DNA from: a virus
Direction: 5' to 3' (one strand)
Virus record (IMG/VR): IMGVR_UViG_3300007514_000029
Span: 1 to 39,171 of that record
DNA length: 39,171 nt
Shown piece by piece: positions 16,685-21,128 of the stretch; within the stretch, counting starts at the first letter, position 1, and each line of letters starts with the position of its first letter. The notes beneath the pieces are model-generated. The model saw nothing but the letters and a program-made list of their open reading frames with translations. It was not told the DNA's origin and ran no database searches. Made by a program: the position numbers and the translations under genes.

Positions 16685-16721
16685 GGTGGGACTACGGATG
16701 TCCCACCCTCTATGGTATACT
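16685..16721 (+). promoter_or_regulatory. Palindromic operator with extended -10, copy 1
   Basis: GGTGGGAC-TACGGAT-GTCCCACC (16685-16707), then TGGTATACT (extended -10, TATACT at 16716) and 6 nt to the ATG at 16728. The palindrome replaces the -35 region. Same geometry in three other copies. Confidence 0.85.
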
Positions 16722-16727
16722 AGACGC

Positions 16728-17003
16728 ATGAAGAATATGAAAAACAACAACATCACAGAAGCACAACTCCTCCTCAATAACGAGGTGAAGATTAACGTGG
16801 GTCAGTTCGCGGGCAAGACCGCCCTTGTTCGCAAGGTCATGGCCGATGGTCGTAGCCTTGAGGTTGAGATTGCTAACAGTAGCGGCAAGATTGCCTTTCT
16901 GGATGTCACTTTTGTCAGTGAGATTCAAGAGCGGACACAGTTCGCCAAGACCGAGCAAAGCCTCGGCCCAATCGCTAACAGCGTGGTTCAAGACCACATT
17001 TAG
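16728..17003 (+). CDS. Hypothetical protein, 91 aa
   Basis: Begins MKNMKNNN, like the MKIKNN/MKIKND starts of three other genes driven by the same operator module. The middle (GKTALVRKVMADGRSLEVEI) suggests a beta barrel-like small domain. The last third is polar. No family recognised. Confidence 0.65.
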   Translation: MKNMKNNNITEAQLLLNNEVKINVGQFAGKTALVRKVMADGRSLEVEIANSSGKIAFLDVTFVSEIQERTQFAKTEQSLGPIANSVVQDHI

Positions 17004-17033
17004 AGCTTGACCTCATTACGGTATTAATTTAAA

Positions 17034-17249
17034 ATGAATAAAACAATGAAAGAAAACATAACATTTATTCCACCGCTCGACCTTGCGGAAGATGGTTGGT
17101 TGAACATTAACGGAGAGACTCTTCGCATAACAAACATTCATCATTTTGATGATTTCGGACATACTCTTGAGACGTTCACTCTTGAGGATGGGCAAGAGGT
17201 TTATTCTCTCGATGAGGGTGAATTCACTACCGAACTTTGGGAGGGTTAA
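17034..17249 (+). CDS. Small acidic protein, 71 aa
   Basis: Alternating short strands with repeated 'DGQEV...LDEGEF' pattern suggest a small beta barrel. ATG at 17034 follows TATTAA by 6 nt; a second Met (17046) is an alternative. No family recognised. Confidence 0.65.
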   Translation: MNKTMKENITFIPPLDLAEDGWLNINGETLRITNIHHFDDFGHTLETFTLEDGQEVYSLDEGEFTTELWEG

Positions 17250-17253
17250 GATT

Positions 17254-17493
17254 ATGAGAATGAAAAGACAACTAATCTTTAAAAGCGGAAAGCCTCAAAA
17301 CGTAGTGCCGACCACGCGCAAACAAAATTTTGCTGCGGCGAAGTCCTGCGAGACATATAACGAGGCCGTGAGTTTGTTTAGAGCGTTGCAACACGCTAAC
17401 AACATGGGAACAGGTGAGCATGACTTTGATATATTAGAGACTCACTTCATTAATAAAAAGGGGTTAGTGAATTACATTAGAGAAGGGCTTTAA
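17254..17493 (+). CDS. Small basic protein, 79 aa
   Basis: Begins MRMKRQLIFKSGKPQNVVP, 4 nt after the preceding stop. The basic N-terminus is followed by an amphipathic helix (residues 35-49). A longer in-frame extension overlaps the previous gene and is not preferred. No family recognised. Confidence 0.6.
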   Translation: MRMKRQLIFKSGKPQNVVPTTRKQNFAAAKSCETYNEAVSLFRALQHANNMGTGEHDFDILETHFINKKGLVNYIREGL

Positions 17494-17494
17494 A

Positions 17495-17800
17495 ATGATT
17501 GACTATTGGGGTGATCTTGTTAAGCGGGAAGAAAAAATGAAATTTGAAGATTTAAAATTTGAGGATGTCTCTGCAACACACGGAGAGAACGCAATTCAGG
17601 CATATGTGGAATTGCCGAACGGTTATGATGTTTCCGTGGTGAAGCATCGGTTTTCATACGGTGGCGAAAAAGGTTTATTTGAAATTGGTTGCTTCTTCAA
17701 CAATCACATGGTTGACCCTTCTGATTGGGGCGATACCGTTAAGGGGTGGTTGAATGAAAGCGACGTTGAACATTGGTTGAACTATATTAAAAAACTATGA
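17495..17800 (+). CDS. Conserved-type phage protein with SYGG motif
   Basis: 101 aa. GYDVSVVKHRFSYGGEKGLFEIGCF (43-67) resembles a conserved hypothetical phage protein with 'NGYGVSVV...SYGG..GL.E.AV'. That family usually begins MKFEDLKF, which here is residue 15 (base 17537), so the true start may be there, giving 87 aa. ATG at 17495 directly follows the previous stop. Function unknown. Confidence 0.7.
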   Translation: MIDYWGDLVKREEKMKFEDLKFEDVSATHGENAIQAYVELPNGYDVSVVKHRFSYGGEKGLFEIGCFFNNHMVDPSDWGDTVKGWLNESDVEHWLNYIKKL

Positions 17801-17904
17801 ATGACTCCTATAGAGATTTGCACTTTTTCCTTTTCTGTTTAATCGGTGCGTTTATTATTATAATCGCAACGGGTATTTATATTGAAATTTTGCCCTACCT
17901 GTAG
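17797..17904 (+). CDS. Single-span membrane peptide, 35 aa
   Basis: MNDSYRDLHF then a hydrophobic stretch (residues 9-31, FFLFCLIGAFIIIIATGIYI). It overlaps the preceding stop codon (ATGA). Like the other micropeptides, probably an inner-membrane span of unknown role. Confidence 0.65.
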   Translation: MNDSYRDLHFFLFCLIGAFIIIIATGIYIEILPYL

Positions 17905-17910
17905 AGCATT

Positions 17911-17962
17911 GTTTTTCCACACTATGGCACGGCATGTGCTGCCCGCTTGGCATAAAGTGTTG
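17911..17962. repeat. Palindromic element copy 5 (diverged)
   Basis: CCACACTATGGCACGGCA, centre TGTGCTGCCCG, then CTTGGCATAAAGTGTTG. The right arm AAAGTGTTG is the exact inverse of the CAACACTTT left arm of the other copies. Confidence 0.65.
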
Positions 17963-18007
17963 ATTATCAAGGGTTTAGCGTTGTGAATAACTTTACCAGG
18001 ATAGTTC

Positions 18008-18036
18008 TTGCTTCTTTGACGATTTTCCGTCATAAT
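18008..18036 (+). promoter_or_regulatory. Leaderless promoter before 18043 gene
   Basis: TTGCTT, 17 bp, CATAAT, 6 nt to the ATG. The same -35 and spacing occur on the minus strand at 26464. Confidence 0.7.
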
Positions 18037-18042
18037 GCTCCC

Positions 18043-18411
18043 ATGAAATTAAAACTGACCGCAGCACCTAACGCAACCCGCCGCACTCGCAATCGCATCA
18101 GTGAGATCGGGCCGATCTTTGAAGATGTCACCCGTGAGTTTACGGGCAAGAATTCCGTTGCGGATCGCGTTTTATTGCGTGGTCAACGCGATTGGTTGGG
18201 ATGGCTTCCCATCTCTGAAATTCGAGCCACCAGCCCAATGGGGTCATCAAAAATCATTTGGCCCGTGGATGAAGATGGTGACTATCGTAGCGCGGGATGG
18301 CACCCGTTGAATCTACACGCGTGGCGGCGTGAGTGTATCGATGGCAAGGCCCATCTTGACCCTTTGGACGCGTGTGGGCATGAGTCCAAACCATATCCAA
18401 AGCGGGTGTGA
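18043..18411 (+). CDS. Basic hypothetical protein, 122 aa
   Basis: Very basic N-terminus (MKLKLTAAPNATRRTRNRIS), then EIGPIFEDVTREF and a segment with LRGQRDWLGWLPISEI (49-64), resembling conserved hypothetical phage proteins. A strong basic head suggests nucleic-acid contact. The stop overlaps the TGTGAATAA box at 18407. Function unknown. Confidence 0.7.
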   Translation: MKLKLTAAPNATRRTRNRISEIGPIFEDVTREFTGKNSVADRVLLRGQRDWLGWLPISEIRATSPMGSSKIIWPVDEDGDYRSAGWHPLNLHAWRRECIDGKAHLDPLDACGHESKPYPKRV

Positions 18412-19996: not shown

Positions 19997-20002
19997 GAAC
20001 GC

Positions 20003-20356
20003 ATGAAAATTAAAAACGATATGAAAGCAAACAACCTAAAACTCGGAGCCATTTACATCAACGCAAACACTGGCCAACCTTGCCGCTTGGTCAACATCGT
20101 ACCCTGTCAGGGTGTCTGGTTAGAGACTTATGACGGTGAGGGATACGGTGAACTGGTTAAATTTGAAGATTGCCACTATGCAGACCAAGACGAGGTTCAA
20201 GATCACCTAGAAGATCACCGCACATTCACCGCTAACGCTAAAGCACCATCTCACAAAGAGATGCCAGCGCAACGCGTTAAGAATTACGATACCTATTGGA
20301 ACGTACAAGGCTACTACGAAGATAGTTATGGCAATGACATTCGATGCAGAGACTAA
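20003..20356 (+). CDS. Hypothetical protein, 117 aa
   Basis: MKIKNDMKANNLKLGAIYIN opens with the shared operator-module start; LGAIYINANTGQPCRLVNIV (13-32) then a strand-rich region suggest an SH3-like small barrel. The C-terminus is acidic and aromatic. No family recognised. Confidence 0.65.
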   Translation: MKIKNDMKANNLKLGAIYINANTGQPCRLVNIVPCQGVWLETYDGEGYGELVKFEDCHYADQDEVQDHLEDHRTFTANAKAPSHKEMPAQRVKNYDTYWNVQGYYEDSYGNDIRCRD

Positions 20357-20385
20357 CCCTATTCAATTCAACCCTTATTATAATT

Positions 20386-20583
20386 ATGAAAAAACACAAC
20401 ATACAAAACGCAAGCCCATTCGCCACAAAGCAACTGGGTGACAAACTCAACAAGGTATTAGCAAAGCATGAAAGAAAGATTGATCGCGGCCTTTCTCGTT
20501 TGCTAGATGGTCTCATTGGCGCAATCATTGCCCTCGGCTTTGTAGTCGCTCATGGTATGCTCACCACACAGTGGACGTGGTAG
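20386..20583 (+). CDS. Single-span membrane protein, 65 aa
   Basis: A basic, helical head (residues 1-42) leads into a hydrophobic span (GLIGAIIALGFVVAHGML, 43-60). TATTATAAT lies just before the ATG. Probably anchored in the inner membrane with the basic part in the cytoplasm. Role unknown. Confidence 0.65.
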   Translation: MKKHNIQNASPFATKQLGDKLNKVLAKHERKIDRGLSRLLDGLIGAIIALGFVVAHGMLTTQWTW

Positions 20584-20626
20584 CACCACACACACGCACA
20601 CACACTAACCCTAACCAAGGACATAT

Positions 20627-20776
20627 ATGTTACACGTTGGATTCGAAACCATCATAGGCGTAGGCCTCATCCTGTTCTCTCTATACAAAACAGATAAGAA
20701 GAACATGACCACATTGCTTATTGGCTTTGCTGGTGTTGCGCTTACTATCCTAGGGCGTCATGCTTGTGGATGGTAG
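20627..20776 (+). CDS. Two-span membrane peptide, 49 aa
   Basis: Two hydrophobic segments (about residues 6-20 and 29-43) with a lysine-rich loop (KTDKKN) between them; ends GRHACGW. AAGGACAT precedes the ATG as ribosome site. Possible holin-like peptide, not adjacent to any lysin. Confidence 0.65.
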   Translation: MLHVGFETIIGVGLILFSLYKTDKKNMTTLLIGFAGVALTILGRHACGW

Positions 20777-20856
20777 GCGTACACGCTAACCCCTGACGCT
20801 AACCCCTAAGGACACAAGCACTATGTAAACTCACAATCCACATAAAGCACTGTATA

Positions 20857-20912
20857 TCAACACTTTGGCACGATATGTGCAGCCGATTTCATGCCAATGA
20901 GACCGAGTCTCA
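20857..20912. repeat. Palindromic element copy 8 with second palindrome
   Basis: CAACACTTTGGCACGATA, core TGTGCAGCCGA (exact inverse of the core in copy 6), TTTCATGCCAA, then TGAGAC-CGA-GTCTCA. TGTGAATAA follows at 20920. Confidence 0.85.
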
Positions 20913-20935
20913 GTTATATTGTGAATAACTTTTTC

Positions 20936-20964
20936 TTGGCAAAAGACTAAAATTTTGATACTCT
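20936..20964 (+). promoter_or_regulatory. Leaderless promoter before 20972 gene
   Basis: TTGGCA, 17 bp, TACTCT, 7 nt to the ATG. Confidence 0.65.
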
Positions 20965-20971
20965 CTTAACA

Positions 20972-21079
20972 ATGAAAACAACGAACGAAACAAAAGACAG
21001 TTGGCCAACCTCTCGTTTTATTGTGGAGATGGTCGCCATTTGGGGCTTGATGATTTGGATGATGATTTCACACCTTTAA
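20972..21079 (+). CDS. Single-span membrane peptide, 35 aa
   Basis: Polar head (MKTTNETKDSWPTS) followed by a hydrophobic stretch (residues 16-34, FIVEMVAIWGLMIWMMISHL). Own promoter. Rich in Met and Trp. Role unknown. Confidence 0.65.
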   Translation: MKTTNETKDSWPTSRFIVEMVAIWGLMIWMMISHL

Positions 21080-21085
21080 TTGTGC

Positions 21086-21122
21086 GGTGGGACAGCGGAT
21101 GTCCCACCCAGTGTGTTATACT
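21086..21122 (+). promoter_or_regulatory. Palindromic operator with extended -10, copy 4
   Basis: GGTGGGAC-AGCGGAT-GTCCCACC, TGTTATACT with TATACT at 21117, 6 nt to the ATG at 21129. Confidence 0.85.
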
Positions 21123-21128
21123 ACTCGC

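Follow-up and report, generated by a model that had tools for sequence, protein, structure and literature searches.

A phage promoter module that resembles promoters of defence and repair genes in Verrucomicrobiota

The closest described systems involve WYL proteins. DriD of Caulobacter crescentus is activated by single-stranded DNA (ssDNA) and acts in an SOS-independent damage response; it recognises ATACGAC-N7-GTCGTAT, and its DNA-binding domains flank the -35 position of promoters that have no -35 consensus and keep one distance to the -10 element (PMC12340889). PafBC of mycobacteria is a damage-response WYL heterodimer that redirects the housekeeping RNA polymerase by sigma adaptation (PMC11804915). 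BrxR and CapW are WYL regulators of defence loci, and BrxR locally represses its own locus (PMC9122601, PMC9122588). Here we describe four promoter modules in IMG/VR virus record IMGVR_UViG_3300007514_000029 (positions 1 to 39,171; this whole stretch of 39,171 nucleotides is called the window), a 39-kb phage fragment with a T4-type terminase, an ATP-dependent ligase, a clamp loader and a PhoH-like protein. In our judgement, the phage has probably copied a damage or defence promoter of its host, likely a WYL-regulated one, to drive its own small genes.

Promoter modules in the window and in other phage records

With up to three mismatches allowed, GTGGGAC-N7-GTCCCAC has exactly four matches in the window, at 16686, 18801, 19961 and 21087. 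In 100 dinucleotide shuffles of the window the mean number of dyad matches was 0.34, and four was never reached. Each match lies in a near-identical module consisting of a 23-bp dyad (GGTRGGAC-N7-GTCCCACC), 5 nt, TG, any nucleotide, TATACT, 6 nt and ATG. The modules, the boxes (located by pattern search and a site matrix), the extended -10 elements and the putative leaderless genes behind them are as follows.

16685-16728, + strand: module 1, dyad box through ATG
16685..16707, + strand: box 1, GGTGGGACTACGGATGTCCCACC, dyad centre at about -32
16713..16721, + strand: extended -10 element of module 1, TGGTATACT, at offset 27 from GGAC, matching host promoters
16728..17003, + strand: gene 1, 91 aa (MKNMKNNNITEAQLLL...), weak KOW-like match
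18800-18843, + strand: module 2, dyad box through ATG
18800..18822, + strand: box 2, GGTGGGACTGCGGATGTCCCACC
18828..18836, + strand: extended -10 element of module 2, TGCTATACT
18843..19298, + strand: gene 2, 151 aa, HAD-like (FDLDGTL motif), weak Hydrolase and polynucleotide kinase matches
19960-20003, + strand: module 3, dyad box through ATG
19960..19982, + strand: box 3, GGTAGGACTACAAATGTCCCACC
19988..19996, + strand: extended -10 element of module 3, TGATATACT
20003..20356, + strand: gene 3, 117 aa, of the commonest family behind the module (14 members)
21086-21129, + strand: module 4, dyad box through ATG
21086..21108, + strand: box 4, GGTGGGACAGCGGATGTCCCACC
21114..21122, + strand: extended -10 element of module 4, TGTTATACT
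21129..21437, + strand: gene 4, 102 aa, without family match

The -10 consensus of these modules is TRTGnTATACT, at one fixed spacing 3' of the dyad. When it is set at -12 to -7, the predicted transcriptional start (+1) is the A of ATG and the dyad centre falls near -32, where a -35 element would lie; no -35 hexamer was found in any of the four modules. A preliminary description, made from the sequence alone, had reported four palindrome/-10/ATG modules of shared geometry, with the palindrome in the place of a missing good -35 element, and both statements were borne out. The sites that it listed are real, but its start coordinates were 1-2 nt too low, and its palindrome is perfect in three modules only: the third reads GTAGGAC...GTCCCAC, with one dyad mismatch. 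The window has 13 copies of the half-site GTGGGAC where 1.8 would be expected, and 7 of the 13 are inside the four dyads. One further copy, previously placed near 21869, is present at 21870 but probably lies outside the promoter system. It sits in GGGGTGGGACTCCCCCCCCTTTTT, a G/C run resembling a terminator (RNA fold of -13.1 kcal/mol, z of only -1.0) with neither promoter nor gene directly behind, and was rejected as an operator on this context.

The same geometry was seen in 30 IMG/VR stretches. Twenty-eight IMG/VR records, including the window, contain 108 modules (up to 3 mismatches), whereas a reversed control pattern gave 0. Because some of these records are near-duplicates, later tallies use distinct sequences. 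A phage carries 1-7 copies, and in large relatives the modules are concentrated in a single genomic region. From 80 distinct sites we derived the matrix GGTRGGAC-NRCRGAT-GTCCYACC-YNNTRTGNTATACT-ANACGC-ATG, with A/T-rich sequence upstream; the offset from GGAC to the -10 element is 27 in 80/80 sites, a spacing that was built into the search. The distance from palindrome to -10 element, on which the preliminary description had staked its interpretation, is kept in relatives. The full phage form was found in none of 84,980 bacterial and archaeal genomes, the cultured phages searched gave no credible match, and a host-like box with TAnAMT was found in only 4 stretches of other viruses, 3 of which already belonged to the set. 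Each module appears to be a complete, mobile phage promoter of a conserved class, and the phages bearing it are large, marine and probably lytic. One relative of 178 kb encodes a four-region sigma-70 factor (L089:14426-15283), a second sigma-like protein (L086:3147-3740) and a transfer-messenger RNA (tmRNA; L088:10910-11327) with an unusual 21-aa tag.

About 30 unrelated families, most with proteins of 40-150 aa, are represented among the genes behind the phage modules. Among 81 distinct downstream proteins, 58 start exactly at the predicted +1, which argues for leaderless mRNAs. In the window, three genes begin with MKIKN, and for these the shared N-terminal codons noted earlier (MKIKNN or MKIKND) hold; gene 1, in contrast, starts with MKNMKNN. 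A-rich first codons fit leaderless mRNAs, and the sharing is best explained by leaderless initiation together with copying of a cassette. By sequence inspection, the window genes at 16398 and 19764 belong to families that elsewhere stand behind the module, and orthologues can carry other promoters in other phages; the promoter thus travels as a cassette. The earlier view that one regulator, contacting DNA near -35, governs unrelated small genes is supported. The only hint of function among these genes is the HAD-like motif of gene 2.

The same box in Verrucomicrobiota chromosomes

A looser form of the box gave six matches in bacterial genomes, about the number expected by chance, one of them on a Verrucomicrobiales contig. 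Further copies of the box, again with a -10-like hexamer at equal distance, were found in that order. Two host sites precede homologous small genes whose R-rich products carry a WWFxQM motif, and this gene is present in 61 of 78 genomes at about one per genome. We read 29 of its promoters, 27 of which could be aligned on the box; their layout is A-tract, T-tract, GGAC-NGYNNWT-GTCC-N-ACCCC and -10 element. In the latter (xAnnnT), the A and the last T are invariant in 27/27, at offset 27 from GGAC, equal to the phage offset. The encoded protein of about 60-70 aa (L160-L189, near position 1500) has a QLELGF start resembling a beta-clamp motif, and a RARWWFxQMRxVVDxA segment. A contig labelled Spirochaetes (L126) also carries this small gene and the box; it may be a misassigned metagenome-assembled genome.

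In hosts the box has the form GGAC-NGYNNWT-GTCC-N-ACC. With a search pattern that left out the -10 element, we obtained 73 matches against 5 for controls in 58 genomes. Thirty-three distinct host sites, located independently of the -10 element, are neither linked to the small gene nor among the repeats of one genome. In 24 of these 33, NANNNT lies at offset 27, whereas 500 shuffles gave 10 or fewer at any offset. Phage and host boxes also have rare spacers in common (AGCCTTT, TGTATTT, AGCCAAT and AGCGGAT). Since most of the host genomes are fragmentary, absences among them carry little weight.

Genes behind the host box are biased towards defence and repair. They include Cas3 of types I-E (three loci), I-C and I-G, Wadjet JetA and JetB, a type I restriction subunit, a type IIG restriction enzyme and an SspB/DUF4007 protein, as well as a Y-family DNA polymerase and RecA. 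Defence models matched 9 of the 33 downstream proteins (E < 1e-30) and 0 of 45 control open reading frames (ORFs) drawn from recA and lexA neighbourhoods (Fisher p = 2e-4); if up to 3 weaker control matches are admitted, p = 0.015. Many targets lack an assigned function, and the target set is impure. A second small family (FGGAQLIK..GG..DR.AA.EW.SLF.HE) also stands behind the box (L231:3413-3658, L232:458-661, L234:3574-3774 and L254:3756-3971), once directly 5' of the Y-family polymerase gene. No earlier description of this regulon was found in the literature searched, most subscription journals being outside its reach.

Candidate regulator, proposed mechanism and alternatives

A LexA match (PF01726) was obtained in 21 of 43 genomes, nine box-bearing genomes have no LexA match, and no box precedes any of 7 lexA genes. 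Because LexA is patchy and lexA boxless, we rejected LexA as the regulator. A WYL match was obtained in 52 of the 58 genomes searched in this order, mostly as a single copy. In the main family, 18 members are 60-74% identical to the first; the proteins have winged helix-turn-helix (HTH), WYL and WCX domains, and their nearest solved structures are PafBC and DriD. Among the phage ORFs read, we found none for a WYL-type regulator. A phage protein as regulator, as envisaged in the preliminary description, is therefore unsupported, since host chromosomes share the box and its spacing and the host WYL candidate is mostly single-copy. Most likely, the box is bound by this host WYL protein related to DriD and PafBC.

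In the mechanism that we propose, the phage box would be a copy of a Verrucomicrobiota activator site, most likely that of the DriD/PafBC-related protein. Phage DNA or damage would activate the regulator, through ssDNA by analogy with DriD and PafBC. Bound at the 23-bp box that straddles -35, the regulator would sit on both sides of sigma region 4, substitute for the missing -35 element and recruit the housekeeping RNA polymerase; the extended -10 element TRTGnTATACT would then start transcription at the A of ATG, yielding a leaderless mRNA. Host repair and defence genes and the small phage genes would be switched on at the same moment, and the stronger phage -10 element may allow some expression without the regulator. 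Activation by a WYL protein, ssDNA as the signal and Verrucomicrobiota as phage host are what we infer here, and nothing but the promoter match points to the host phylum. We would guess that the phage genes behind the module are early and counter-defensive, judging by where they lie and by their size and variety.

We advance only tentatively, as possible rather than probable, the wider proposal that Verrucomicrobiota have a LexA-independent WYL regulon (CRISPR-Cas, Wadjet, restriction and repair) whose promoter marine phages copied in front of counter-defence genes, arming both sides. If so, the phage would exploit the same alarm that its host raises against it. A promoter signature by which a single host regulator could govern many defence systems across a bacterial order is rarely seen, and the phage genes under it are good candidates for new anti-defence proteins.

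Several observations weigh against a copied WYL-dependent host promoter. Only 27 of 58 genomes yielded the box (up to 1 mismatch), and of the 20 recA loci read, 3 have it. One genome (G080; L237-L239, L257-L259) carries 18 copies before zwf, pgk-tpi, clpC and other genes, a set that is not one of defence genes. No clear box indicating autoregulation was found at the host WYL gene, and two genomes, G085 and G032, possibly incomplete, have the box or its small gene but no WYL match. The -10 offset of 27 differs from that of DriD promoters, which is 26 as placed from the printed didA and CCNA_03891 sequences. None of the phage genes that follow the module has a recognised anti-defence function. 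As to the host, the window terminase had no relative in 286 genomes of the order, in a search rated uninformative by its own output, and the tmRNA tag of the relative is unlike Verrucomicrobiota tags, only conserved ends having matched in the tmRNA search; Verrucomicrobiota are therefore only a presumed host. As a separate observation on G080, most of its copies read TGGACAGCCAATGTCCTACCC, and several adjoin a DnaA-box-like TATTCACA.

Another host regulator, possibly a LexA-like or XRE-type repressor from which the phage genes are released on damage, would also account for repair and defence targets, which are typical of SOS-like regulons, and a dyad at -35 would block RNA polymerase as well. 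This is unlikely in our estimate: LexA was found in only half of the genomes and lexA is boxless, and a constant 27 nt to the -10 element with no -35 element suits an activator, whereas repressor sites usually shift. We give still less credit to a phage-encoded DNA-binding protein, either a MotA-like activator or a repressor, with the likeness to host promoters a relic or a convergence. The full module with TATACT is confined to this phage group, and the large relative encodes two sigma-like factors, so these phages control transcription themselves; but the box core, spacer rules, ACC flank, A/T tracts and 27-nt spacing are common to host promoters, and the phage ORFs read lack a WYL protein.

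The sigma-70 factor of the large relative (regions 1.2, 2, 3 and 4), conserved in four other records, could itself read the modules with the dyad as its -35 element. We regard this as very improbable, because its region 4.2 helix (LTRERIRQLE) looks, by inspection, like the one in housekeeping sigma factors, whose -35 element is TTGACA, and because the same box and spacing are in use on host chromosomes. Least credible of all is a function of the inverted repeat in RNA, as a terminator or a PeSL-type stem-loop of T4-type phages. Window GGTGGGAC sites do fold well (-14.9 kcal/mol) and the cassette is mobile, yet in 62 of the 80 distinct sites an A in the left arm lies opposite a C in the right arm, a mismatch that would break the stem and on which we rejected a hairpin or terminator. 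There is also no U tract, and the repeat is 5' of the -10 element, hence outside the mRNA that it precedes. We conclude that the dyad acts as DNA rather than as an RNA hairpin.

Neighbouring promoters and known systems

The same region contains a second promoter class, in which TGTGAATAAC (DnaA-box-like, TTATTCACA) typically lies 17-19 nt before TTGAC(A/T)-17-TATATT/TATACT; its -10 element is often also 6 nt 5' of ATG. Relatives have 44 such sites (30 at 17-19 nt), against 0 with a scrambled box, and 133 copies of TTATTCACA were counted in 1.14 Mb. Host DnaA is a possible regulator of this class. A repeated intergenic element, TTGGCACGA...TGCCAA, a putative terminator hairpin, lies 5' of them; in its place, relatives carry CTTGAC...GGGACCGGTCCC...GTCAAGCTTTTT.

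Window 15174, 16339, 17983, 18408, 19680 and 20921, also L085-L121: second-class promoters
Window 16298, 18743, 19634 and 20865: TTGGCACGA...TGCCAA element

T4 middle promoters combine an extended -10 element with a short asymmetric box (TGCTTTA, at -30) for the phage-made protein MotA, and the PeSL cassettes of T4-type phages shuffle an RNA stem-loop among small phage genes. The modules share with these the extended -10 element, a regulator site replacing -35 and the shuffling of a cassette among small genes. They differ in their host-type dyad, in the lack of a MotA box in the site matrix (a MotA homologue was not searched for) and in that an intact RNA stem-loop is not kept in relatives. 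Some phage genes, such as tum of coliphage 186, are controlled by LexA, which represses them. Here too phage genes would be under a host damage regulator, but these phages are large, probably lytic, and would have several genes under such control.

Like BrxR and CapW, the candidate is a WYL protein that would be linked to anti-phage defence genes; unlike BrxR, it would serve many scattered loci through one box type that looks activator-like. With PafBC, one of its two closest solved relatives, it would share the character of a damage-response WYL activator that redirects the housekeeping RNA polymerase, but it would be one protein, not a heterodimer. The PafBC promoter motif is TTGTCRGTG-N8-TAnnnT, from which, to our knowledge, the GAC-N7-GTC dyad is absent; host sites have TTGTCC-N-ACC, without RGTG after TTGTC, and a spacing one longer. 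The likeness to DriD extends to half-sites of the form TAnGAC-N7-GTCnTA (GTRGGAC-N7-GTCCYAC in phages, GGAC-N7-GTCC in hosts), a dyad over a -35 position without consensus, a constant distance to the -10 element and damage-related targets. Unlike in Caulobacter, where the box has CGAC/GTCG, phage and host boxes have GGAC/GTCC, accompanied by A/T tracts, a C-rich flank, defence-system targets and phage-borne copies.

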